From assembly GCF_008245225.1 (NCBI RefSeq), contig NZ_VTAW01000002.1, positions 186,001 to 250,000 of the forward strand: a DNA stretch of 64,000 nucleotides, in the 5' to 3' direction. The position numbers were made by a program, and so were the translations under genes. Numbering within the stretch: position 1 is the first letter of the stretch; each line of letters opens with the position of its first letter. The DNA is from Natrialba swarupiae. Lineage in GTDB: Archaea; Halobacteriota; Halobacteria; Halobacteriales; Natrialbaceae. The notes below the pieces were generated by a model that had not been told where the DNA came from, did no database searches, and saw only the letters and a list, made by a program, of their open reading frames with translations. Shown here one piece after another: positions 44,164 to 57,763 of this stretch.

Positions 44164-45273
44164 CTACTCGAGATCCCACCACGCCGCGTAGTGGTCGACG
44201 ACCTCGTCGACCGCGGCGACCGCAGAGTCGGTATCTCCCTCGAGCCAGACGAACGGGTCGTCGATCGTCGAGTCGATGCCGAGTACGCCCTCGATCGTGC
44301 CGAGTGTCGCGTACGCGAGGTGGCTGGGGTGGTAGCCGCCTTCCTGGATCAGTGCGAGCCGACCGCTCGCGGAGGTTTCGGCGATCCGACGCGCTCGCTG
44401 ACCGAACGATTCGAACCCGGCTTTCGTCACGACGTTCCGTCCGAGCGGATCGACCGTTCCGGGGTCCCCACCGGCGCTGACCAGCAGGAGGTCGGGGTCG
44501 TACTGGCCCACGATGGGGTCGACGAGGCGGTCGAACGTCACCGCGTAGCCGTCGTCGCCGGTCCCCGGCGGAAGCGGAACGTTGACGTTGTAGCCGACGC
44601 CGTCGCCCGTCCCGTGTTCGTCCACGTTGCCCGTCTGGGGGTGAGCCTCGGGGTTCCACGAGACGTGCTCGCTGTGGAGGCTGATCGTCAGGATGTCCGC
44701 GCGATCGAAGAAGATCTCCTGCGTGCCGTTGCCGTGGTGGACGTCCCAGTCGAGAATCGCGACGCGGTCGATGTCCCCGTGTGTGAGCGCCTCCTCGGCT
44801 GCCACCGCGACGTTGTTGAAAAAGCAGAAGCCGTCGACCTGTGCCGGCTGGGCGTGGTGTCCGCTCGGTCTGACGGCCGCGTACGGGACGTCCTCGAGTC
44901 CGTGCGCGATGGCGTAGTCGGCGGCTTCGGCGGCGGCACCCGCGGCGTACCGGGCGGCCCTGTACGTCGCCTTGTTAGCGCCGGTCCCGCCGGTGATTCG
45001 GCCGCCGCCCCCAGCGCAGAACGTGCGTAACTCCTCGACGTGAGACGGATCGTGGACGCGGTGAAGCTGCTCGTCCGTCGCTTCCGGCGCGTCGCGCCAC
45101 CGAACCCGGTCCTCGAGTTCGTGACGGAGGACGTGGCGGATGTTTCGCAAGCGGACCGCCCGATCGGGGTGGGGCTGTTCGACCGCGAGTCGTCCCGTCC
45201 ACGGTGCTTCCCCCTCTCCTGCTGGCGGTTCGTGCTCGAGAAACCGCTCGTCCCAGAGTGCGGTTACCTCCAT
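44164..45273 (-). CDS. histone-deacetylase-family enzyme (acetylpolyamine amidohydrolase-like)
   Basis: A 369-residue HDAC/AcuC/AphA-superfamily protein. The active-site histidines are in RPSGHHA, zinc ligands are in DWDVHHGNG, and a further aspartate is in SAGGDPGTVDPLG (usually SAGFD). A variant phenylalanine-to-glycine change near this aspartate may alter substrate preference. In prokaryotes such enzymes remove acetyl groups from polyamines or proteins. The gene lies in a polyamine-type cluster, so acetylpolyamine is the likely substrate by context. It diverges from a class III aminotransferase and has a GGAA-N6-TTCC palindrome 40-63 nt before its ATG. Confidence 0.88.
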   Translation of the reverse strand: MEVTALWDERFLEHEPPAGEGEAPWTGRLAVEQPHPDRAVRLRNIRHVLRHELEDRVRWRDAPEATDEQLHRVHDPSHVEELRTFCAGGGGRITGGTGANKATYRAARYAAGAAAEAADYAIAHGLEDVPYAAVRPSGHHAQPAQVDGFCFFNNVAVAAEEALTHGDIDRVAILDWDVHHGNGTQEIFFDRADILTISLHSEHVSWNPEAHPQTGNVDEHGTGDGVGYNVNVPLPPGTGDDGYAVTFDRLVDPIVGQYDPDLLLVSAGGDPGTVDPLGRNVVTKAGFESFGQRARRIAETSASGRLALIQEGGYHPSHLAYATLGTIEGVLGIDSTIDDPFVWLEGDTDSAVAAVDEVVDHYAAWWDLE

Positions 45274-45312: not shown

Positions 45313-45336
45313 ATTGCGGAAGTGTACTTCCGCAAT
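45313..45336. promoter_or_regulatory. GGAA-N6-TTCC palindrome, site 1 (NrpR-type operator candidate)
   Basis: Arms of nine bases (ATTGCGGAA and TTCCGCAAT) surround the spacer GTGTAC. The core GGAA-N6-TTCC equals the operator of NrpR in methanogens. It lies upstream of the HDAC-family gene, in the gap shared with the class III aminotransferase and NrpR-like operon. Confidence 0.7.
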
Positions 45337-45476
45337 AGCCGTCGCGCCCGTCACTCGAGCGATCGAATAGACGGTGGGTTGAACGACTGTGGCGGCGGTA
45401 TCGAGGGAAGACGGTCGATCGATACGATCGCTGCCTGCGATAGCTATATGAGGATCCACGTCAATAGAGCAGATAA

Positions 45477-45494
45477 CCGGAAGTATATTTCCGG
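45477..45494. promoter_or_regulatory. GGAA-N6-TTCC palindrome, site 2 (NrpR-type operator candidate)
   Basis: CCGGAA-GTATAT-TTCCGG ends 8 nt before the ATG of the class III aminotransferase. It shares the GGAA-N6-TTCC core and 6-nt spacer with site 1. It would lie over the start region of the transcript that also encodes an NrpR-like regulator, which suggests autoregulation. Confidence 0.7.
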
Positions 45495-45502
45495 GTTTCG
45501 TG

Positions 45503-46906
45503 ATGACCGAGAGGAACTCGAGCCCCGACCCAGCGATCGACGAACTGCTCGCTCGCGAGTACGAACGGTATCGAGAGCGGACGCCGAACTCGAAGACGAT
45601 GGCCGACGAGCTCCGAGAGATCGTCCCGGCCGGCGTCTGCAGCACGTTCCGGGCGTACGATCCGTACCCGTTCCACGCCGAGCGTGCGGAGGGTACGACG
45701 ATTCACGACGTCGACGGCAACGAGTACCTCGACTTCGCGCTGAACAACGGAACCCAGCTCGTCGGTCACACCCATCCACGACTGACGGACGTCGCCACCG
45801 ATCAGATCGAACGAGGGACACTCTACACCCGGCCGAGCGAGCTGCTCGAGTTCGCAGCGACTCCGCTGATCGATCGGTGGGAAGCGATCGAACAGGTCCG
45901 CTTTACGAACAGCGGAACGGAGGCCGTGATGCACGCCACTCGTCTCGCACGCGCGTACACCGGACGCGAGAAGATCGTTCGAATGGAGGGAGCCTACCAC
46001 GGCGCACACGACCCGGCGCTCGTAAGCAAGATGCCGCCACTCGAGCAGGCCGGTCCGGCAGGCGATCCGCGGCCGGTCCGCGAGTCTCAGGGGATCCCGT
46101 CGTCGGTTCCCGACGACGTCCTTCTCGCTCAGTACAACGACGCAGAGAGCGTCGAAGGGTTGTTACGCGAACGCGGATCGGAGATCGCCGCAATCCTGGT
46201 CGAACCTGCCTGTCTCAACCTCGGGCTCGTCGAACCGGAGGACGGATTTTTACAGCGCCTGCGCGAACTCGCCGACGAGTACAACGTGGTGTTGATCTTC
46301 GACGAGGTGAAAACCGGCGTCAAACTCGCGCCCGGTGGCGGTGCGGAGTACTACGGCGTCCAGCCGGACCTCGTCGCGCTCGCGAAAGCCATCGGCGGCG
46401 GCTACCCGGTCGGCGCGTTCGGCGGCCGACGCGAGATCATGGAGCTGATCGCCGACGATCTGAACGACGGCGTCGCGACCGGCGCGGCACACTACGGGAC
46501 GTACAACGGAAACCCACTGTCGCTTCGCGCCGTCGGTGTCACGCTCCGGGAAATCCTGACAGACGAGGCCTACGACCACGTCGCCGACCTCAATGCTCGG
46601 CTGGCCACCGGCTATCGCGAGGTCATCGAAGACTCCGGCCTCGAGGCCCAGGTGAAAGCCGTGGGCTCTCAGGGGATGGTCCACTTCACCGAGGAGCCGA
46701 TTCGTACCTTCCGCGACTGGACGCACGTCGACGAGGAGTTCCACGAAGCCTACTGGATCGGGATGGTAAACAGAGACGTTCTTCCACACCCCCACGACGC
46801 CTCCCAGCAGTGGACGGTAAGCGTTCGACACACTGCCGAGGACGTCGACGCCCACGTCGACGCGTTCGCGGATCTCGCCACGCATTTATCCGACGCCCAA
46901 CACTAG
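45503..46906 (+). CDS. class III aminotransferase, aspartate aminotransferase family
   Basis: A 467-residue PLP enzyme. Motifs are FTNSGTEAVMHATRLARAYTG, FDEVKTG, and LAKAIGGGYPVGAFGG, where the lysine binds PLP. It is nearer to glutamate-1-semialdehyde-type members than to the second class III enzyme at 54253. The normal heme-pathway role is unlikely given the context. A polyamine or omega-amino acid is a reasonable substrate, but this is inference. A GTG one codon upstream is also possible. It is followed by the NrpR-like gene after 7 nt, and a GGAA-N6-TTCC palindrome lies directly before it. Confidence 0.9.
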   Translation: MTERNSSPDPAIDELLAREYERYRERTPNSKTMADELREIVPAGVCSTFRAYDPYPFHAERAEGTTIHDVDGNEYLDFALNNGTQLVGHTHPRLTDVATDQIERGTLYTRPSELLEFAATPLIDRWEAIEQVRFTNSGTEAVMHATRLARAYTGREKIVRMEGAYHGAHDPALVSKMPPLEQAGPAGDPRPVRESQGIPSSVPDDVLLAQYNDAESVEGLLRERGSEIAAILVEPACLNLGLVEPEDGFLQRLRELADEYNVVLIFDEVKTGVKLAPGGGAEYYGVQPDLVALAKAIGGGYPVGAFGGRREIMELIADDLNDGVATGAAHYGTYNGNPLSLRAVGVTLREILTDEAYDHVADLNARLATGYREVIEDSGLEAQVKAVGSQGMVHFTEEPIRTFRDWTHVDEEFHEAYWIGMVNRDVLPHPHDASQQWTVSVRHTAEDVDAHVDAFADLATHLSDAQH

Positions 46907-46913
46907 TCGGGCG

Positions 46914-47918
46914 ATGACGAACGATCCCGACCGGCGGACGTACGACGTGCTTCGGCTGCTGGCAGAGCACGAGCCGATCGGTAGCGTCCGCCTCACGGAC
47001 CACCTCCGAGAGCGGGGCTACTCGATCACCGAGCGAGCGGTTCGGCTCACGCTCGCCGACCTGGACGACGCTGGCCTGACCGAGAAGGTCGGCGGCAAGG
47101 GCCGACGACTCACCGCGAACGGACGCGCCGAACTCGAGCGCGGCGGCGTCCGTGGCCGGGTCGAACAGGTGCGGGAGAAACTGGCCGACATGACGAGTCG
47201 GGTTACCTACGATCCGTCGACCGATACCGGTGACGTTATCGCCGGCACCGTCACCGTCCCGCGGGCGAAACGCGACGAACTCGAGGCGGTGCTCGAACGG
47301 ATCGACGACTCCCCGCTGGGGCCGGTTGCCGCCGGTATCGAACCCGTCGACCGGAACGGAACCGACTGTCTCGAGGTGGCCGTCCCCTCGAGCGTGACGA
47401 TCGACGGCGTCTTTCTCTCACACGGGATCGAAAGCTACCCCGATACGATCGGTGTCGTCGAGTACGACCCGGACTCCGACGACGTTCCGTACGAGGGTCC
47501 AGATCAGGCGGAAAACGGTGGGGCGATCCGACGGTACACGGACGTGATCGGCGACGAACGAGCGACGCTCGACGTCGTCTCCCTGTTGATCGAAGCTCAC
47601 CGGACCGACGTGACGAGTGCACTCGACGGAGAGGTCGGGTTGCTGGTCGCCGACAACAGGGAGTTTCCGCTCGCACATTACGAAACTGCCCGCGAACTCG
47701 CGGTCGGAACCCGCAACGCACTCGGTGGTTCACTGGACGTTCGTCGACCGCGTGAGTCGGGCCCGTTTCCCTGGGGAGATCCGGGCTGGGCGTTCGGCTC
47801 ACTCACCTACGCCGGAGGATCCGAATGCGTCATTTCGGCTTGTGTAGAGGCTGACTTGGCACTCGAGTGGGAGACACTTCGGGGGCTCCGACCGCGTTCC
47901 ACTCTCACCCATGAGTGA
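46914..47918 (+). CDS. NrpR-like transcriptional regulator 1
   Basis: A 334-residue protein. Residues 5-70 form a winged helix (TYDVLRLLAEHEPIGSVRLTDHLRERGY, then ERAVRLTLADLDDAGL). Residues about 95-325 form one DUF128-type effector domain (SRVTYDPSTDTGDVIAGTV, PSSVTIDGVFLSHG, and EVGLLVADNREFP). NrpR of methanogens has two such domains and is released from DNA by 2-oxoglutarate. This one has a single domain. It is co-transcribed with the upstream aminotransferase (7-nt gap). It shares the whole layout with the regulator at 53000. Confidence 0.85.
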   Translation: MTNDPDRRTYDVLRLLAEHEPIGSVRLTDHLRERGYSITERAVRLTLADLDDAGLTEKVGGKGRRLTANGRAELERGGVRGRVEQVREKLADMTSRVTYDPSTDTGDVIAGTVTVPRAKRDELEAVLERIDDSPLGPVAAGIEPVDRNGTDCLEVAVPSSVTIDGVFLSHGIESYPDTIGVVEYDPDSDDVPYEGPDQAENGGAIRRYTDVIGDERATLDVVSLLIEAHRTDVTSALDGEVGLLVADNREFPLAHYETARELAVGTRNALGGSLDVRRPRESGPFPWGDPGWAFGSLTYAGGSECVISACVEADLALEWETLRGLRPRSTLTHE

Positions 47919-48033: not shown

Positions 48034-48059
48034 TTGGAAACGTAGATAGTGTGATACGG

Positions 48060-48075
48060 TGGCAAGAGTATGCCA
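48060..48075. promoter_or_regulatory. TGGCA-N6-TGCCA palindrome, site 1
   Basis: TGGCA-AGAGTA-TGCCA covers the start codon (48070-48072) of the transporter operon. It shares arms and spacer length with 54225-54240. A repressor here would block the early transcribed region. Confidence 0.6.
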
Positions 48076-49164
48076 GGACAAACACACGGACGACGGACGT
48101 TTCTCGAGCGAGCGGCCGCCGGCGGAAGCGCGGTCACGCTCGCCGGGCTCGCAGGGTGTACAGGGGTCCTCGAAGACGACACGCTGACGGTCGCCGTCTA
48201 CGGCGGCGTGTTTCAGGACGTGATGGACGAAGAGCTGTTCGCTCCGTTCGAAGAGGAGGTCGACTTCGAGGTCGAATCCGAAGCGCAGCCGACCTCCGAG
48301 GAGGCGCTCACCCAGTACGAAAACGCCGTGGGAGCGGGGGAAGCGCCCGTCGACGTCGCCATCATGGCTCAGACCGGCGTCATGCAGGGTCTGAACTCCG
48401 ATCTGTGGCACATCTGGGACCACGACGACTTCGACAACGTCGAGTACATCAGCGACGACCTCGTCGGCGAGGCCGACGGTGGAATCTCGAGCGTCGGTGC
48501 GCTGTCGTGGTATATCAACCTCGTCCAGAACACGGACGTCATCGAAGAGCCAGTCGACACGTGGGAGGCGTTGTGGGACGAGGAGTACGAGGATACGCTC
48601 GGACTGCTGGGCTACGCCTCGAACTCGTTTTTACTCGAGGTCACAGCAGAGTTACACTTTGGCGGCCAGGAGATCCTCGACGACCGCGACGGCGTGATGG
48701 AGGTCTTCGAGGAACTCGAGGGCGTAACCGACCAGGCGAACTTCTGGTACGAGAACGAAGCGGAGTTCCAACAGCGACTTCGGGACGGCGAAGTGCCGGC
48801 GGGGATGCTCTACAGTGACATTACGCTCGTCATGCAAGACGACGGCGCGCCGGTCCAGTCGAACTTCGTCGAAGAGGGGTCGATCCTCGACTCCGGACTC
48901 TGGGTTACACTCGAGACCTCGGAGGTCAAAGAGGAGGCACGGCAGTTCATCGATTATGCGAGCCAGCCCGAGGTACAGGACCTCCTCGCCGAAAATCTGT
49001 ATACGAGTCCGACGGTCGAAGAACAGTACTCCGAGATCGACGGCGAGTTGTACGAACAGATCGCCGGCCCCGGACCGGACGCCGCAATCTCACCCAAGTA
49101 CGAACTCTACGTCGAGGACGAAGACTGGGTGAGCGAACGCTGGGAGGAGTTCATCATCGGCTAA
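48070..49164 (+). CDS. PotD-type ABC transporter substrate-binding lipoprotein
   Basis: A 364-residue protein. A Tat-type signal (GRRTFLERAAAGG) ends with the lipobox LAGC, so it is exported folded and then lipid-anchored. The mature part has the periplasmic-binding fold of spermidine/putrescine-binding proteins (LTVAVYGGVFQDVMDEELF, SDLWHIWDHDDFDNVEYISDDL, GALSWYINLVQNTD). The ligand could be a polyamine or related cation such as agmatine. It is the first gene of a four-gene operon with the ATPase, the fused permease and a nitrilase-family amidase. Confidence 0.9.
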   Translation: MPGQTHGRRTFLERAAAGGSAVTLAGLAGCTGVLEDDTLTVAVYGGVFQDVMDEELFAPFEEEVDFEVESEAQPTSEEALTQYENAVGAGEAPVDVAIMAQTGVMQGLNSDLWHIWDHDDFDNVEYISDDLVGEADGGISSVGALSWYINLVQNTDVIEEPVDTWEALWDEEYEDTLGLLGYASNSFLLEVTAELHFGGQEILDDRDGVMEVFEELEGVTDQANFWYENEAEFQQRLRDGEVPAGMLYSDITLVMQDDGAPVQSNFVEEGSILDSGLWVTLETSEVKEEARQFIDYASQPEVQDLLAENLYTSPTVEEQYSEIDGELYEQIAGPGPDAAISPKYELYVEDEDWVSERWEEFIIG

Positions 49165-49170
49165 GCCAGA

Positions 49171-50265
49171 ATGAGCGGAATCTCACTCGAGGGCGTGACG
49201 AAGCGGTATCCGGGCGGCGTCCTCGCCGTCAAGGGCGTCGACATCGACATCGAAAGCGGCGAGTTCGTCACGCTCGTCGGCCCGTCGGGCTGTGGAAAGA
49301 CGACGACGTTACGGATGATCGCCGGCTTCGAGACGCCGACCGACGGGACGGTTGGAATCGACGGCGAGAACGTTACCGACGCGCCGCCCTACGAGCGCGA
49401 CACCGGGATGGTCTTTCAGGACTTCGCGTTGTTCCCCCACATGACCATCGACCAGAACGTCGCCTACGGGATGGAGGCGGCGGGCGAGTACACCGACGAG
49501 GAGATAGACGCACGCGTCGCCGAGATGCTCGAGTTAGTCGAACTCCCCGACGTCGGCGATCGGACGCCCGACCAGCTTTCTGGCGGCCAACAACAGCGGA
49601 TTGCGCTGGCTCGCGCGCTCGCTCCGAAGCCGAAGGCGCTGTTGCTCGACGAGCCACTCGCGAGCCTCGACAAGAAGCTTCGCGAGCAGATGCAAGTCGA
49701 GTTACGCCGAATCCAACAGGAGATCGGCATCACGACGGTGTTCGTCACGCACAACCAGGAGGAGGCGTTGACGATGTCCGACCGCCTCGCGGTGATGAAC
49801 GACGGCCGCTTCGAACAGATCGGACCACCGGAGGAGGTCTACGACGATCCCGACTCCCGGTTCGTCGCCGACTTCCTCGGCACCGCCAACATCTTCGACG
49901 GCACCGTCGCGTCCGTCGAAGACGGCTACGCGACCGTCGACTGTCCCGACGTGACACTCCAGTCGACGAATCCGGCCGGCGTCGAGGCCGGAACTGAGGT
50001 CTCGGTCGTCGTTCGACCCGAGCGGTTCCGACTTCGGGACGCGAGCACCGACGGCGGCGTCGGTCTCGACGCCGACGGGACCAACGTGTTCGAGGGAGAA
50101 GTCACGTTCAAACGACACCTCGGCAGCAGCGTCGAGTTCCGCCTCGAGACCGACGGCGGTCGCGAGATCGTCGTCGTCCGCCGGAGCGGGCTCGACGAAC
50201 TCGAGCCCGGCGACCGGACGACGGTCGCTATCGACGCCGAGGACTGCCGGCTCGTGGAGGCGTAG
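49171..50265 (+). CDS. PotA-type ABC transporter ATP-binding protein
   Basis: A 364-residue ATPase. Walker A is GPSGCGKTT (about 38-46), the signature is LSGGQQQR, and Walker B is KALLLDEPLASLD. The C-terminal 120 residues form the TOBE/OB domain typical of the PotA/MalK group. It powers import with the fused permease. The 6-nt gap to the binding protein and immediate junction to the permease place it in the operon. Confidence 0.95.
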   Translation: MSGISLEGVTKRYPGGVLAVKGVDIDIESGEFVTLVGPSGCGKTTTLRMIAGFETPTDGTVGIDGENVTDAPPYERDTGMVFQDFALFPHMTIDQNVAYGMEAAGEYTDEEIDARVAEMLELVELPDVGDRTPDQLSGGQQQRIALARALAPKPKALLLDEPLASLDKKLREQMQVELRRIQQEIGITTVFVTHNQEEALTMSDRLAVMNDGRFEQIGPPEEVYDDPDSRFVADFLGTANIFDGTVASVEDGYATVDCPDVTLQSTNPAGVEAGTEVSVVVRPERFRLRDASTDGGVGLDADGTNVFEGEVTFKRHLGSSVEFRLETDGGREIVVVRRSGLDELEPGDRTTVAIDAEDCRLVEA

Positions 50266-52140
50266 ATGGCGACGGAGACGCCCACGGACGACGGTGCCGG
50301 CGAGTCGGGCCGTGCGGGCCTGAAGGCGAACGCGAAGTGGTACGTCCTCTCGTACCCGCTGTTCTGGCTCGTCGCCGTCTTCCTCATCCCGCTGTCCATG
50401 CTGGTCGTGTTCAGCTTCTGGGTAAACATCCCCGGCGGGCAATACGAGATGGGCTTTACGCTCGAGAACTACGTCAGGTTCCTCACGAGCAGCCTCTATC
50501 TCGGCCAGACGTGGCTGACGATCGAACTCTCGCTCGTCACTGCAATCCTCTCGCTGGTGCTTGGCTACCCGATCGCCTACTACCTCGCGCGGATGAACCG
50601 TCCGTGGCTGCGGAGTCTGCTGTTGCTCACGATCATCTCCTCGCTGTGGGTGACGTACGTCATCCGGGCGTACGCCTGGCAGGTTATCCTCGCCTCGGGC
50701 GGCTTTCTGAGTTCCTTCGGCGTCGCCGTCGGAATCCTCTCTGAACCCCGGTCGTTCTACCCGGGCTACTGGGGGCTGGTGGTCGGCATGGTGTACGTCT
50801 TCTTGCCGTTCATGATCCTCACGCTGTACAGTAGCATCCGCAACATCGACGACGAACTGCTCGAGGCCTCGAGGAATCTCGGCGCAGGGCCGGCGAGGAC
50901 GTTCAGGAAGGTGACGTACCCGCTGTCGAAAAACGGCATCGCGAGCGGCACCGCACTCGTCTTCATCCTCGCGCTGGGTTCGTACGTCCTGCCGCGACTG
51001 CTGGGGAGTTCCGCCGAACGGACCCTGCCGGTGTTGATCGAACAGCAGATCATGAGCGAGAGCAACTACCCGTTCGGCGCTGCGATGAGTATCGGGCTGA
51101 TCGTGGTCGTGCTCGCGTTCCTCTGGGTGATGGTTCGCTTTACCAACGTGACGACCGCAAGCCTGAGCGGAAGCGACGAAATCGCAACCGACGGCGGATC
51201 CGAGGCTACACCGGCGGTCGGCTCCTCGAGTTCCCCCATAGGGATGCGCATCCGGTCTGCAGTCGTCGACGCGGCCTCGGTTGTCGGTCTCACGTACGTC
51301 GTTGCCCGAATCGCGGGGGGCGTCGACTCGCTCGTGACGACGGTAGACTCCTCGACCCGGGAATCGATCATCTGGGTGACGTTCAGAGCGTACGTCGCGG
51401 CGGCGATGGCCTTTATCGCCGTTCCGCTCGCGATCATCGTTGCGGTCTCGGTTACGCCCGAGGAGTTCCTGACGTTCCCACCGGGTGGCGTCTCGGGACG
51501 GTGGTACGTCGAGTTCTTCACCGACACAAGCTGGATGGGCGCACTCGCGAACAGCCTCGGGATCGCTCTCGGTGCGGCGATCCTCAGCACGACGATCGGT
51601 GGCGGTCTCGCGTTTGCGCTCGATCGATTCGACTACCGCTTTGGCACGATCTACGGCACGCTCGGCGTCCTCCCGATCCTCGTTCCACCCGTGATCATCG
51701 GCGTCGCCTTCCTCGTGTTCTTCCTCGAGGTCGGCCTCGCCGGCTCGCGGACGGCCATCGTCGTCGCACACGGGATCTTCTACGCGCCGTTCCCGTTCAT
51801 CCTGATCTCTCAGGGGCTTCGAGAGATCGACCGAACGTACGAGGAGGCCGCGATGAACCTCGGAGCGTCGCCGGTGCGGACGATTCGGACGATCACTTAC
51901 CCGCTCTTGCGCGCGAACGTGATCTCCGGGGCGTTGTTCGCCTTCATCCTCTCGCTCAACGAGTACATCATCGCGTGGCTGCTCTCGTTGTTCCTCGTCG
52001 AGACGATCCCGATCGAGATCTTCAACCAGCTCCGATACTCCTATCCGCCGACTATCGCGGCCGCGAGCGTGGTCTTCATCGGCCTCACCGTCGTCGTGAT
52101 GACGGCGATCGATCGGCTCTCCGGAGGGATCTGGGAGTAA
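50266..52140 (+). CDS. fused PotB-PotC-type ABC permease
   Basis: A 624-residue protein with two permease modules. The N-terminal one (about 25-300) has the EAA loop EASRNLGAGPARTFRKVTYPLS. After a hydrophilic linker of about 50 residues, the C-terminal one (about 365-620) has the loop EEAAMNLGASPVRTIRTITYPLL. In bacteria PotB and PotC are normally separate proteins. The fused form should work as one unit with two ATPase subunits. Confidence 0.93.
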   Translation: MATETPTDDGAGESGRAGLKANAKWYVLSYPLFWLVAVFLIPLSMLVVFSFWVNIPGGQYEMGFTLENYVRFLTSSLYLGQTWLTIELSLVTAILSLVLGYPIAYYLARMNRPWLRSLLLLTIISSLWVTYVIRAYAWQVILASGGFLSSFGVAVGILSEPRSFYPGYWGLVVGMVYVFLPFMILTLYSSIRNIDDELLEASRNLGAGPARTFRKVTYPLSKNGIASGTALVFILALGSYVLPRLLGSSAERTLPVLIEQQIMSESNYPFGAAMSIGLIVVVLAFLWVMVRFTNVTTASLSGSDEIATDGGSEATPAVGSSSSPIGMRIRSAVVDAASVVGLTYVVARIAGGVDSLVTTVDSSTRESIIWVTFRAYVAAAMAFIAVPLAIIVAVSVTPEEFLTFPPGGVSGRWYVEFFTDTSWMGALANSLGIALGAAILSTTIGGGLAFALDRFDYRFGTIYGTLGVLPILVPPVIIGVAFLVFFLEVGLAGSRTAIVVAHGIFYAPFPFILISQGLREIDRTYEEAAMNLGASPVRTIRTITYPLLRANVISGALFAFILSLNEYIIAWLLSLFLVETIPIEIFNQLRYSYPPTIAAASVVFIGLTVVVMTAIDRLSGGIWE

Positions 52141-52168: not shown

Positions 52169-52996
52169 ATGGCGGACGAAACCCGAATCGTCGTCGCTCA
52201 GACGGTCCCCGAGTTCGGGGCCGTTGCCGACAACCGCGAACGAACGCTCGAGATCGTCCGCTCCCATCCGACGGCCGATCTCGTCGTGCTTCCGGAACTC
52301 GCGACGTCGGGCTACGTGTTCGAGTCGACCGACGAACTGGCGTCGATGGCCGAACCCCGGGACGGGGAGACCGCTCGAGCGTGGTCCGCGGTCGCCGCGG
52401 AGACTGAAACGTGGATCGTCGGCGGCGTTCCCGAGCGAGCGGACGACCGGTACTACAACAGCGCCTTCGTCGTCTCGCCGGACGGCCTAGAAGGCGTCTT
52501 CCGGAAGGTCCATCTCTGGAACGAGGAGAACCGCTGGTTCGAGGCGGGTGACCGGCTGCCGGTGTTCGACGCGCCGTTTGGCCGGCTCGGGGTCCAGATC
52601 TGCAACGACCTGTGGTTTCCCGAGGCAACGATCACGCAGGCCCGACGCGGTGTTGACCTGATCGCCGTGCCGACGAACTGGGTCCCCGATCCCGGTGTGG
52701 CGAGGGAGAACCGACCTGCCGACTGGACGATGGGCGTTCACCAGGCGGTCGCACACGCCAACGCCAATCGAGTGTTCGTCGCCTGTGCGGACCGCGCCGG
52801 CCTCGAGCGCGACGTTCCGTTCGAAGGCCAGAGCGTCGTCCTCGATCCGAACGGGCGACCGCTTGCCGGACCCGCGCCGGCCGACGGCGAGTACGTCCTC
52901 GAGGCCGACTGCGATCTCTCGCGGGCGCGGGACAAATCGCTGACCGACCGCGACGACGTGCTCGCGGACCGTCGACCCGACGTCTACGACTTGTAA
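52169..52996 (+). CDS. carbon-nitrogen hydrolase (nitrilase superfamily amidase)
   Basis: A 275-residue protein. The catalytic triad is visible: Glu in VVLPELATSGY, Lys in VFRKVHLW and Cys in LGVQICNDLWFPE. Family members hydrolyse amides, such as N-carbamoylputrescine or guanidinobutyramide, and the context suggests one of these. It ends the transporter operon, 28 nt after the permease, and converges with the second NrpR-like regulator (3 nt between stops). Confidence 0.93.
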   Translation: MADETRIVVAQTVPEFGAVADNRERTLEIVRSHPTADLVVLPELATSGYVFESTDELASMAEPRDGETARAWSAVAAETETWIVGGVPERADDRYYNSAFVVSPDGLEGVFRKVHLWNEENRWFEAGDRLPVFDAPFGRLGVQICNDLWFPEATITQARRGVDLIAVPTNWVPDPGVARENRPADWTMGVHQAVAHANANRVFVACADRAGLERDVPFEGQSVVLDPNGRPLAGPAPADGEYVLEADCDLSRARDKSLTDRDDVLADRRPDVYDL

Positions 52997-52999
52997 GTA

Positions 53000-54028
53000 C
53001 TAGCCGTTCGGCTCTGGGACGCGAGTGATCGACTGTACTGGCTCGAGTTTGTGCCGGGAGACCATCCCGTACAGCGTCTCCCAGGAGGTCGTAAGATCGT
53101 ACTCGTACAGCGACGACAACAACAGCTCCCCCGTCCCGGCGTACGTGATCGAGCCGAACGCCCATCCCGAGTTGCTATCCTGAAACTGGGTTCGCTCGCG
53201 TGGCCGTTGAAAGTCGACGACGCCGCCGAGTTCCCCACGCGTCGATTCGGCGAGGTCGCGAGCCTCCTCGAATCGGTTGATCGGAAACTCCCGATCGTCG
53301 CCGAGCAGGAATCCGGTTTCCGACGACTCGAGGACGCTTTCGACGTCGCTTCGGTTCGCCTCGATGAGGAGCGTGATGACGTCGATCGACGACCCCTTCC
53401 CGTTCAGGACGTCGACGTGGCGAACGATTCGACCGTCTCGGTCGCTCGAGTCGTCCGTCCCGTCCGCCGGGGGCTCGTACTCGAGGACGGCGGCGTTCGT
53501 AAGCGTCGCGTTGATTCCGTGGGTGAGTAACACACCGTCGAGTGAGATACTCGAGGGGACGAGCAGACGGTAGTCGCCGGGCTCGTTCTCGGCGCTTTCC
53601 TCGAACGACGCGGGGATCGGGCCGAACGATCGCGCGTCGAGCCGTGCGAGCAATGACAGCGCGTCTGCCACGTCGTCCTCCGCGAGGAACGCGCCCGACG
53701 CGATGAGTACTCCGGCGTCTTCGGTCGGATCGTAGGTCACGCGACTCGTGAGCTGTGCGATTCGCGCTCGGATCTGCTCGAGTCGGCCGCTGACGTGGCC
53801 TTGCTCGAGTTCTCGTCGCCCCTTCTCGGTGAGTCGACGGCCGCGTCCCGGAACCTTCGTGGTCAGCCCCAGATCGTCGAGCTCCGACAGTGTGAGCCTG
53901 ATCGTCCGGCCTTTGATCTCGTAGCCGTGAACCTGCATCAGTTCGACGAGCTGAATGCTGCCGATCGGGCCGTGGCGGTCGACGAGCCTGAGAATGTCGT
54001 ACGTTCGTCGATCGAGATCCGGGGGCAT
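53000..54028 (-). CDS. NrpR-like transcriptional regulator 2
   Basis: A 342-residue paralog of the 46914 regulator. It has a winged helix at residues 3-70 (RRTYDILRLVDRHGPIGSIQLVE) and one DUF128-type domain (SRVTYDPTEDAGVLIASGAF, PSSISLDGVLLTHGINA, and ETGFLLGDDREFP). The two share arrangement and many identities across their length. It diverges from the aminotransferase-agmatinase operon at 54253, whose promoter has a TGGCA-N6-TGCCA palindrome that it may bind. Confidence 0.86.
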   Translation of the reverse strand: MPPDLDRRTYDILRLVDRHGPIGSIQLVELMQVHGYEIKGRTIRLTLSELDDLGLTTKVPGRGRRLTEKGRRELEQGHVSGRLEQIRARIAQLTSRVTYDPTEDAGVLIASGAFLAEDDVADALSLLARLDARSFGPIPASFEESAENEPGDYRLLVPSSISLDGVLLTHGINATLTNAAVLEYEPPADGTDDSSDRDGRIVRHVDVLNGKGSSIDVITLLIEANRSDVESVLESSETGFLLGDDREFPINRFEEARDLAESTRGELGGVVDFQRPRERTQFQDSNSGWAFGSITYAGTGELLLSSLYEYDLTTSWETLYGMVSRHKLEPVQSITRVPEPNG

Positions 54029-54193
54029 TCAGGCGAACAAATGGCGACGGGATACACTAATGTTTGTGTTCGGTACCGGAACACGACCGTCACTGGTGGC
54101 GATAGAGGAGCTATCCGTTCTCGCCGGACAAACGGCTCGCATCGGACACTCGCCGTGGCACCGTCTCCGCGACGGATCCGTGATCGTGGGTAA

Positions 54194-54203: not shown

Positions 54204-54224
54204 CCTGTGGACCGTCGCATAGGG

Positions 54225-54240
54225 TGGCAACAAATTGCCA
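54225..54240. promoter_or_regulatory. TGGCA-N6-TGCCA palindrome, site 2
   Basis: TGGCA-ACAAAT-TGCCA with arms extending to TGGCAA/TTGCCA. It sits at the likely transcription start of the operon and opposite the divergent NrpR-like gene. Its arms and spacer equal those of the site at 48060. Confidence 0.65.
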
Positions 54241-54252
54241 TACTGTGTGACA

Positions 54253-55578
54253 ATGGCACCCAATACGACGTTCACGAATAATCGGGAAGTCGAGTCACGG
54301 TACGACGAGTACGTGATGTCAGTGTGGAAAGACCTCGACGTGCCCGTCGAGCGGGCCGAGGGCTGTACGCTCGAGGATTTCGACGGAAACGAGTATCTCG
54401 ATCTCTTTTCGGGAATTTCGGTGGCGAACGTTGGCCATAACAATCCAGCAGTCGTCGAAGCGACACGGGACCAACTCGAGGAGTTCGTCCACGGCTGTTC
54501 GTACGTCCACCCGAACGCGCCGGTCGCAGAACTCGCCGAACGGATCGCCGAGATCACGCCGGGCGACCTCGAGAAGAGTTTCTTCTGTAATTCGGGGACC
54601 GAAGCGGTCGAGGGCGCGATCAAACTCGCCCGGAAACACACGGGCAACACGGAGGTCGTCGCCCTCGAGATGGCGTTTCACGGCCGGACGCTCGGCAGTC
54701 TCGCGCTGACGGGCAACGAGGCGTACAAAAAGGAGATGGCACCGACGATCAACGACGTCGCCCACGCGCCGGCACCGTACGCTTACCGGTGTTCGTCCTG
54801 CGACGGCGAGTGTACGACGGCGTGTGCCGACCGCATAGAGCACGTCATCGGCACCCATACCTCGGGAGATCTGGCCGCGATCGTCGTCGAGCCGGTGATG
54901 GGCGAGGGGGGGATCGTCGTTCCGCCGGAAGGATGGCTCGAGCGCGTCCAGGAGGTCGCCCACGACCACGGCGGACTCCTGATCGCCGACGAAGTTCAGT
55001 CGGGATACGGCCGAACCGGCGAGCTGTTCGCCGTCGAGCACTTCGACGTCGAACCGGACATCGTCACCCAGGCGAAGGGAATCGCGAACGGGCTCCCGCT
55101 CGGTGCGTTCACCGCCCCGAGAGAGATCGCGGACAGCTTCGAATCCGGTGATCACCTCTCGACGTTCGGTGGCAACCCTGTCGCCTGCGCCGCCGCGCTG
55201 GCGACGATCGACGAACTCGAGGGCGGAATCGTCGACGACGCACGCGAACAGGGCGAGTGGCTCTCCGATCGACTCGGGGCGCTCGAGTCGTCGTTCGACG
55301 TCGTCGGCGAGACCCGCGGTCTCGGCCTGATGCAGGGGATCGAACTCGTCGATCCCGACGAGAAGGGACCACTCGGCGTCGCGGCGGCCCCGGACGACCA
55401 CCTCGCGAAGGCCGTCTCGAAACGCCTGCGCGAAGAGGGAATCGTCATCGGCGTCGGCGGCTACTACGGCAACATCTTGCGGTTCCAGCCGCCGTTGACG
55501 ATCACACGGAACCAGCTCGAGCGAGCGGTGGAGTCACTGGAAGCCGCGCTCGAGGCGGAGGTCGAGACGAATGCGTGA
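54253..55578 (+). CDS. class III aminotransferase (GABA/putrescine/ornithine type)
   Basis: A 441-residue PLP enzyme. FFCNSGTEAVEGAIKLARKHTG, MAFHGRTLGSLALTGN, and DEVQSGYGRTGELFA are typical, and the PLP lysine is in VTQAKGIANGLPLGAF. A cysteine cluster (RCSSCDGECTTACADRIEH) occurs where many class III members have a similar insert. It probably handles GABA or putrescine. The ATG at 54253 is chosen; an in-frame TTG further upstream falls inside the palindrome. It overlaps the ureohydrolase by 8 nt. Confidence 0.9.
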   Translation: MAPNTTFTNNREVESRYDEYVMSVWKDLDVPVERAEGCTLEDFDGNEYLDLFSGISVANVGHNNPAVVEATRDQLEEFVHGCSYVHPNAPVAELAERIAEITPGDLEKSFFCNSGTEAVEGAIKLARKHTGNTEVVALEMAFHGRTLGSLALTGNEAYKKEMAPTINDVAHAPAPYAYRCSSCDGECTTACADRIEHVIGTHTSGDLAAIVVEPVMGEGGIVVPPEGWLERVQEVAHDHGGLLIADEVQSGYGRTGELFAVEHFDVEPDIVTQAKGIANGLPLGAFTAPREIADSFESGDHLSTFGGNPVACAAALATIDELEGGIVDDAREQGEWLSDRLGALESSFDVVGETRGLGLMQGIELVDPDEKGPLGVAAAPDDHLAKAVSKRLREEGIVIGVGGYYGNILRFQPPLTITRNQLERAVESLEAALEAEVETNA

Positions 55579-56575
55579 GCGCGGTCGAGCCGGGGCGTTT
55601 CGTGAGTCGGTGACCGGCGCTGACGTCGAACTCGCGTACGCCGGCTTCGATCGGTTCCTCAAAGGCGAGGAACGCGCATTCGACGACGTCGACGACGTCG
55701 ACGCGGCGGTCGTCGGCGTCCCCTACGACGGCGCGGTTTCCAATCGGCCGGGCGCCCGGTACGGTCCGGCGGCGATCCGGGAGGCCAGCGGCTGGTGGGC
55801 CTACATCTCCGACTACAAGGGCGGACTCACGAACATGCAGACCGGGAAGAACGTCGACTTCGGGAACCTCGAGGTCGCCGACTGCGGCGACGTTCCCGTC
55901 TTCCCGATGGACCACGAGACCACCGCCGAGAGCATCACTGCCCACGTCGCCGCGCTCGCCGCACAGACGTTCCCGGTCCTGCTCGGTGGCGACCACTACT
56001 GTACGTTCCCCTCGGTCCGCGGCTTCGCCGAAGGCAGGGGATACGACAGCGTCGGCTTCGTCCAGATCGACGCCCACACCGACACCGTCTCGGAGAGCCC
56101 CGTCTTCGGCACCGAGTTCCACGGATCGAGTACGGCCCAGATCGCCGACACTCCGTACGTCGACTACGAGAACGTCAGCCAGGTCGGGATCCGTGGCTAC
56201 GAATCCCCCGATTTCTTCGAGTTCGCCGACGAAACCGGTCTCAATCTCTACACGATGCGCGAGGTCGAAGACCGTGGAATCGGCGACGTCGTCTCCGACG
56301 CCGTCGAGGCCGCGGCCGACGGCACCGACGCGGTCTACGTCAGCTTCGACATCGACGCGGTCGACCCCAGCGTCGCACCGGGAACTGGAACGCCGATCCC
56401 CGGCGGACTCTCCGCACAGCAAGCTCTCGAGACGATGGAGGTCCTCGGCGCACACGACGCCGTTTCCGGTGCCGATCTGATGGAGGTCTCGCCGCGGTAC
56501 GACTCGACCGAAGGAACCCAACGGCTCGCGGCGTATCTCCTCGTAACGTTGCTCGAGCGCGCGTTCGCGGAGTGA
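55571..56575 (+). CDS. agmatinase-family ureohydrolase
   Basis: A 334-residue arginase/agmatinase-family protein. Manganese-binding motifs are all present: LLGGDHYCTFP, FVQIDAHTDTVSE and SFDIDAVDPSVAPGTGTP. It hydrolyses a guanidino compound to urea plus an amine, with agmatine or 4-guanidinobutyrate the likely substrate. It overlaps the upstream class III aminotransferase by 8 nt and precedes a class I aminotransferase by 9 nt, so the three are one operon. Confidence 0.94.
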   Translation: MRERGRAGAFRESVTGADVELAYAGFDRFLKGEERAFDDVDDVDAAVVGVPYDGAVSNRPGARYGPAAIREASGWWAYISDYKGGLTNMQTGKNVDFGNLEVADCGDVPVFPMDHETTAESITAHVAALAAQTFPVLLGGDHYCTFPSVRGFAEGRGYDSVGFVQIDAHTDTVSESPVFGTEFHGSSTAQIADTPYVDYENVSQVGIRGYESPDFFEFADETGLNLYTMREVEDRGIGDVVSDAVEAAADGTDAVYVSFDIDAVDPSVAPGTGTPIPGGLSAQQALETMEVLGAHDAVSGADLMEVSPRYDSTEGTQRLAAYLLVTLLERAFAE

Positions 56576-56584
56576 GCACAGATC

Positions 56585-57763
56585 ATGGACACACCACACA
56601 ACGGCGGACTTCCCGACGGCGTCGTCGGCACCGGCCGGACCACCGGCGTCGCCGAATCGGTCATCCGCGAGATGACCCGCGAGGCGATCGACCGGGGCGC
56701 GATCAACCTCTCACAGGGCATCCCCGACGAGGACGAGACGCCGCCCGAGATCAAACGCGCCGCGAAGGAGGCGATCGACACCGACAGTCAGTACACCATC
56801 ACCTGGGGGCTGCCCGAACTCCGGGAGGCGGTCTCCGAGCGCTACGCCGAGTGGAAGGGGATCGAATACGATCCCGAGACGGAGGTGACCATCACCAGCG
56901 GGACCAGCGAGGCGATCATGTCGACGATGCTCGCACTCGCGGGCCCCGGTGACGAGGTGATCTACTTCGAACCCGTCTACGAGAGCTACATCCCCGCGAG
57001 TCAGTTCGCCGGCGCGAACCCGATCCCGCTGGACATGACCGACGGCGTAGAGCCCGATTACGAGGCACTCGCCGAAGCCGCGGAGCGGGCGCGAATCCTC
57101 GTACTCAACACGCCGATGAACCCGACCGGGAAGGTCTTTACCCGCGAGGAACTCGAGCGGATCGAGGAGATCGTCTTCGAGCACGACCTGATCGTCCTCA
57201 CCGACGAAATCTACGAGCACATCGTCTACACGGACGACTACGTCAGCCCGGTCGAGGTCGGCGACCTCGCAGAGCGAACCGTCGTCTGTACGGGCATGTC
57301 GAAGACGTTCAGCGTCACCGGCTGGCGGATCGGGTTCTGTCTGGCTCCCGAGTACCTCTCCCGGGAACTCCGGAAGGTCCACGATTACACGAGCATCTGC
57401 GCGCCGACGCCGTTCCAGCGCGCTGGCGTCGAGGCGCTGTCGCTCCCCGACTCGTACTACGCGGAGCTTTCGAAGTCGTACGAACGGCGTCGCGATCAGC
57501 TCTGTTCGGGTCTCCGTGAGGCCGGTCTCGAGCCCGTCGAACCCGACGGCGCCTACTACGTGATGACTCGCTACCCGACCGACGAGACCGACCTCGAGTT
57601 CTGTTATCGGCTCATTCGAGAGGCCGGCGTCGCGCCGGTTCCCGGCAGCAGCTTCTACACCGATCCCGACGCCGAGGCCGACTGGGTCCGGTTTACGTTC
57701 TCGCGAAACGAGTCGACCATCGACGAGGCGATCGATCGGTTGCTCGAGAACCGGTGGTGGTAG
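56585..57763 (+). CDS. class I/II aminotransferase
   Basis: A 392-residue fold-type I enzyme. NTPMNPTGKVFTREEL, LTDEIYEHIVY and the PLP-lysine motif GMSKTFSVTGWRIGF are visible. An aspartate or arginine-family amino acid is a possible substrate, but sequence does not decide this. It is the third gene after the ureohydrolase. Together with the two class III enzymes this gives three transaminases in about 12 kb. Confidence 0.93.
   Translation: MDTPHNGGLPDGVVGTGRTTGVAESVIREMTREAIDRGAINLSQGIPDEDETPPEIKRAAKEAIDTDSQYTITWGLPELREAVSERYAEWKGIEYDPETEVTITSGTSEAIMSTMLALAGPGDEVIYFEPVYESYIPASQFAGANPIPLDMTDGVEPDYEALAEAAERARILVLNTPMNPTGKVFTREELERIEEIVFEHDLIVLTDEIYEHIVYTDDYVSPVEVGDLAERTVVCTGMSKTFSVTGWRIGFCLAPEYLSRELRKVHDYTSICAPTPFQRAGVEALSLPDSYYAELSKSYERRRDQLCSGLREAGLEPVEPDGAYYVMTRYPTDETDLEFCYRLIREAGVAPVPGSSFYTDPDAEADWVRFTFSRNESTIDEAIDRLLENRWW

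Follow-up and report, generated by a model that had tools for sequence, protein, structure and literature searches.

The window analysed here, a 64,000-nucleotide stretch of the Natrialba swarupiae genome, contains two GGAA-type palindromes beside a gene for an NrpR-like protein, and raises the question of whether a haloarchaeon uses the operator of the methanogen nitrogen regulator and, if so, for what. The NrpR operator of M. maripaludis is GGAAN6TTCC (PMC2723118) and that of M. mazei NrpRI is GGTA-N6-TACC (PMC3177094). In haloarchaea, nitrogen regulation is described as poorly understood and a master NrpR is said not to be conserved (PMC6801745). The literature searched, which covered few subscription papers, yielded no account of NrpR-like operators from haloarchaea.

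Both palindromes lie in one intergenic region. The distal palindrome (45313-45336) reads ATTGCGGAA-GTGTAC-TTCCGCAAT and has two perfect 9-bp arms; the proximal one (45477-45494) reads CCGGAA-GTATAT-TTCCGG and has two perfect 6-bp arms. They are 140 bp apart, between a divergent gene on the minus strand for an HDAC/acetylpolyamine amidohydrolase-family protein (44164-45273; PF00850, 1.4e-77, with relatives in the PDB) and, on the plus strand, a class III aminotransferase gene, AT1 (45503-46906; PF00202), followed by the NrpR-like gene NR1 (46914-47918). The sequence agrees exactly with the preliminary description of this divergent promoter. Gene starts were taken as conserved ATGs, so that AT1 begins at 45503 rather than at the GTG at 45500 of the open reading frame list. 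The distal palindrome precedes the HDAC-family start codon (45273) by 40-63 bp. The proximal one, a predicted operator with its core CGGAA-N6-TTCCG at 45478-45493, is just 5' of the AT1 start; a TATA-like box (TATAT, 45445-45449, plus strand) begins 33 bp before it.

Palindromes can arise by chance in GC-rich DNA, and we weighed this explanation against the counts. The window contains five GGAA-N6-TTCC sites where 1.03 would be expected, and no shuffle reached five; three of the five are outside the AT1-HDAC intergenic region. When that 239-bp region was shuffled 20,000 times, one such site appeared in 0.14% of shuffles and two in none. The extended form CGGAA-N6-TTCCG is found within the window only in the distal and proximal palindromes; the genome holds 12 other such sites, and open frames are no guide to whether those are coding, since long spurious ones cover the promoter sites too. 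On the other hand, perfect 6-6-6 palindromes (49 in the window) are three times commoner than random, and the genome-wide scan that had been proposed returned a total near chance, 81 bare GGAA-N6-TTCC sites across 4.2 Mb against about 68 extrapolated from the window shuffles. We therefore dropped the genome-wide count as evidence, and because the core is near chance and such palindromes are common, the weight falls on conservation across species and not on the motif alone.

Among the 125 genomes of the family that we searched, NR1 and AT1 orthologues (at least 76% identity) were present in exactly the same 15, and in every one of these CGGAA-N6-TTCCG stands immediately 5' of AT1. Three more genomes with the operon (L197, L209 and L210), which belong to other family codes (f5 and f12) and were fetched after the pattern was set, have it as well, so that the proximal site precedes the AT1-NR1 operon in 18/18 genomes found with it, under three haloarchaeal family codes. 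In an alignment of 13 representatives, the ten arm bases were the only invariant promoter columns, with the spacer 38% identical and the flanks 27-37%; across all genomes the AT1-promoter half-sites read CGGAA in 36/36. Such conservation at a fixed promoter position leaves the chance explanation a negligible probability and already refutes it for the proximal site. A lack of conservation of the palindromes upstream of orthologous genes was one outcome that, according to the preliminary description, would refute its proposal of an NrpR-type operator. The proximal site passed that test and is a predicted operator of this type in every genome with the operon, while the distal palindrome is kept in few relatives: it is intact in the window, L062, L064 and L209, reduced to a half-site in L065-L067 and otherwise absent. 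It is probably the operator of the divergent HDAC-family gene, as a less certain operator than the proximal one. Sites inside AT1 in relatives, such as AACCGGAAGATGGTTTCC, were rejected as candidates because they look like conserved codons. At locus L061 13606 (Natrarchaeobius chitinivorans), another CCGGAA-N6-TTCCG precedes a DUF7139-type gene, some 500 bp 5' of AT1, and there is no HDAC gene at that place.

The same alignments bear on whether the palindromes act as RNA. Inverted repeats close to start codons could form hairpins in a leader transcript and act by attenuation or by occluding the start codon. The arms, however, are invariant in base identity and show no compensatory changes, the flanks are near random, and in related loci there are asymmetric sites, with GGCA on one side and TTCC on the other, whose arms would mispair, all of which makes a hairpin highly improbable.

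We then asked whether NR1 belongs to the NrpR family. Its NRD domain scored 69.1 bits with PF01995 against a cut-off of 25 (4.4e-19), and phmmer matched it to 3nek (MJ0159; E 3.4e-5). The N-terminal winged helix scored 53.6 bits with PF08461 (2.1e-14) and aligns with methanogen NrpRI. NR1 and methanogen NrpRI share 39 well-conserved positions, with 19-23% identity in the NRD. A predicted structure of NR1, computed from four sequences, was poor (mean pLDDT 43) outside the helix-turn-helix (HTH), which was its confident part, and did not suffice for a fold search. The single DUF128/NRD domain had earlier been held as a reservation; it falls away, as the methanogen NrpRI proteins compared likewise consist of an HTH and one NRD in about 324 aa. 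The genome has only two PF01995 genes, NR1 and a second regulator, NR2 (53000-54028, minus strand; PF01995 3.3e-16, PF08461 5.2e-10), both with an HTH; an NrpRII-like partner, an NRD without HTH, was not found among these PF01995 genes. Control genomes with no PF01995 match at all include that of Haloferax volcanii. In the phylogenetic tree NR1 forms one clade with 100/100 support, and a long branch separates the haloarchaeal proteins from methanogen NrpRI.

NR2 lies in the same gene cluster. Downstream of NR1 on the plus strand are genes for a PotD-like solute-binding protein (48070-49164), a PotA-like ABC ATPase (49171-50265; TIGR01187 above cut-off), a PotB-PotC-like permease (50266-52140) and a nitrilase-superfamily amidohydrolase (52169-52996). 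The permease is a fusion, a single open frame that encodes both the PotB-like and the PotC-like domain. Beyond NR2 follow, again on the plus strand, a second class III aminotransferase gene, AT2 (54253-55578, with its ATG at 54253 and the open reading frame list starting it at a TTG at 54235), an agmatinase/guanidino-acid hydrolase-family gene (55571-56575; TIGR01230 above cut-off) and, adjoining it, a class I/II aminotransferase gene (56585-57763), which is a conserved neighbour. This gene content points to a polyamine or guanidino compound that the cell takes up and breaks down.

The cluster also contains a second type of predicted operator. TGGCA-N6-TGCCA occurs exactly twice in the whole 4.2 Mb genome, both times here: as GGTGGCA-AGAGTA-TGCCA at 48058-48075, overlapping the potD-like start codon, and as GGTGGCA-ACAAAT-TGCCA at 54223-54240, upstream of AT2. 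Sites of the TGGCA-N6-TGCC type are present at 21/21 potD-like starts in relatives, with GGCA in 42/42 half-sites, although the ATGCC start lies within the right arm's reach and part of the conservation there may be coding. GG(C/A/T)A half-sites also occur at the agmatinase/AT2 promoters of almost every relative, single-regulator loci among them, with the site assignment unsure for L218 and L221. At three loci the automatic scan missed the operator owing to the assumed start, and it was visible on direct inspection. By comparison across genomes, sites that fit the NrpR-family operator form GGNA-N6-TNCC are thus predicted at 18/18 AT1 and 21/21 potD-like promoters. The motifs themselves are widespread: ACCGGAA-N6-TTCCG matched in 76 of the 125 genomes, mostly with GC-rich spacers, so that its mere presence does not follow that of NR1. 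Relatives' genomes often contain GGTGGCA-N6-TGCC too, and only position in the cluster is diagnostic. The preliminary description had linked the palindromes to an NrpR-like gene in the downstream operon, NR1, with which the CGGAA type goes, and had overlooked the second operator.

Two further sequences may belong to this picture. Upstream of NR2, at about 54075-54095, is a box, ACACTAAnGTTTG, which reads CCAAGGTTTGG in many relatives and is kept in most NR2 loci; it may be the promoter of NR2 or a site of another kind. In two other haloarchaea (loci L181 2640 and L182 2552), an apparent sodium:solute symporter gene that lies downstream of the NrpR-like gene has GTGGCA-N6-TTCCA at its start, which makes this symporter gene a possible further member of the regulon.

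Which regulator reads which site? The genomes L085-L087 keep NR2, the cluster and the TGGCA sites, and have neither AT1-NR1 nor a CGGAA promoter site. The start of the recognition helix differs: NR1 has T39-E40 in 18/18 genomes, NR2 has K39 followed by D or G at position 40, methanogen NrpRI has G-E, and proteins from single-gene loci mostly have K39 with G, D or S. This match between residues 39-40 and operator type is a correlation resting on one clade. Since NR1 is a single clade and goes together with its CGGAA promoter in one operon, the suggested pairing of NR1 with CGGAA and NR2 with TGGCA rests on essentially one evolutionary switch, together with the absence in L085-L087. Alternatively, NR2, or both paralogues in a shared or hetero-dimer network, might bind the CGGAA sites, with another role for NR1. 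Specificity is not absolute, since TGGCA, TGGAA and occasionally TGGTA half-sites are found in relatives that have only one NrpR-like gene; some of these use mixed TGGCA/TTCCA sites as well as symmetric TGGAA sites, and a single protein may accept either A or C at that base. Against this, genomes with NR2 but without NR1 retain only the TGGCA type at these promoters, and the AT1 and potD half-sites each hold to their own sequence (CGGAA and GGCA) without exception. We consider binding by NR2 or by both proteins unlikely.

We favor a model in which NR1 acts on the CGGAA sites and NR2 on the TGGCA sites, as local repressors of the uptake and breakdown cluster, and give this model as a whole a probability of about three in four. 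With five-base half-sites and a six-base spacer, the half-site centres are 11 bp apart, or one turn of the helix, a spacing that suits a dimer bound to one face of the DNA. An NR1 dimer on the two CGGAA half-sites, downstream of the TATA-like box, would block transcription of AT1-NR1, and NR1 would thereby repress its own operon; the autoregulation suggested earlier is likely, to judge from the operator at the promoter of NR1's own operon in all 18 genomes. Through the distal site NR1 may also repress the divergent HDAC-family gene. NR2 would repress the polyamine-type transporter operon and the AT2-agmatinase operon through TGGCA-N6-TGCCA, and an effector, either a pathway intermediate or 2-oxoglutarate, would presumably release both proteins.

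The position of the sites suggests the direction of control. From the TATA-like box to the operator the distance is mostly 33-37 bp at the AT1 and potD promoters (24 bp in L197, and some promoters have no called box) and 25-35 bp in the called cases at agmatinase/AT2 promoters. Archaeal repressors usually sit downstream of the TATA box, at or near the transcription start, so repression at the transcription start is the likeliest mechanism suggested by these spacings. Sequence does not reveal the direction of control, and the regulator, though bound downstream of the promoter, could activate transcription or have both effects; with the operators at or near the expected transcription start, where archaeal repressors are usually found, we regard this as very unlikely.

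Is NR1, then, a true functional NrpR, a global nitrogen repressor released by 2-oxoglutarate whose regulon includes nitrogen assimilation genes? The domain family and core operator are the same, and the cluster encodes nitrogen-releasing enzymes. However, no GGHA-N6-TDCC was found within 1.5 kb of this genome's three glutamine-synthetase-family domains, TGGCA-N6-TGCCA is confined to the cluster, and the gene is patchy, with NR relatives in 28/125 genomes of the family and 51/392 of the order. A global role is quite unlikely in our estimation, though NR1 may still respond to 2-oxoglutarate as such. With no site near the glutamine-synthetase-family genes, NR1 and NR2 look like local pathway regulators rather than a global nitrogen switch. 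Sequence comparison thus supports membership of the NrpR family and suggests an NrpR-like DNA code, leaving a role in global nitrogen control unsupported. Of the earlier proposal that this haloarchaeon has the methanogen operator, the GGAA-N6-TTCC core stands, and the global nitrogen control that it suggested is not supported.

More broadly, we lean towards the view that the haloarchaeal NrpR family comprises pathway-specific regulators of polyamine or guanidino uptake and catabolism, in which a duplication split the operator code within one cluster into CGGAA-N6-TTCCG and TGGCA-N6-TGCCA, a change that maps to where the recognition helix begins. For work on archaea that are aerobic and culturable, the cluster supplies concrete candidate regulators with their operators and target genes. 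A single cell has two paralogues that appear with the same operator geometry and different half-site bases, and together with the methanogen GGAA and GGTA operators they offer a natural series for how an NrpR-type winged helix reads DNA, how duplicated regulators of this type avoid cross-talk and how DNA preference shifts.

How do these regulators compare with known systems? The GGAA, GGTA and GGCA half-sites share one geometry with a variable third base, GGCA being a further variant. NR1 resembles M. maripaludis NrpR in its wHTH and NRD family, in the GGAA-N6-TTCC core and in the 6-bp spacer. M. maripaludis NrpR has two NRDs, whereas NR1 has one; NR1 also differs in its extended CGGAA half-site and in an apparent regulon of one local cluster instead of nif, glnA and glnK-amtB. 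Methanosarcina mazei NrpRI and its relatives are closer in architecture, length (about 324 aa against 334 for NR1) and operator geometry, but differ in NRD sequence, in the half-site base and in having a separate NrpRII-like protein. Regulators of bacterial polyamine and guanidino catabolic operons, such as PuuR, belong to a protein family unrelated to NrpR, yet they exert the same kind of local, cluster-linked control of uptake and catabolism that we propose for NR1 and NR2.
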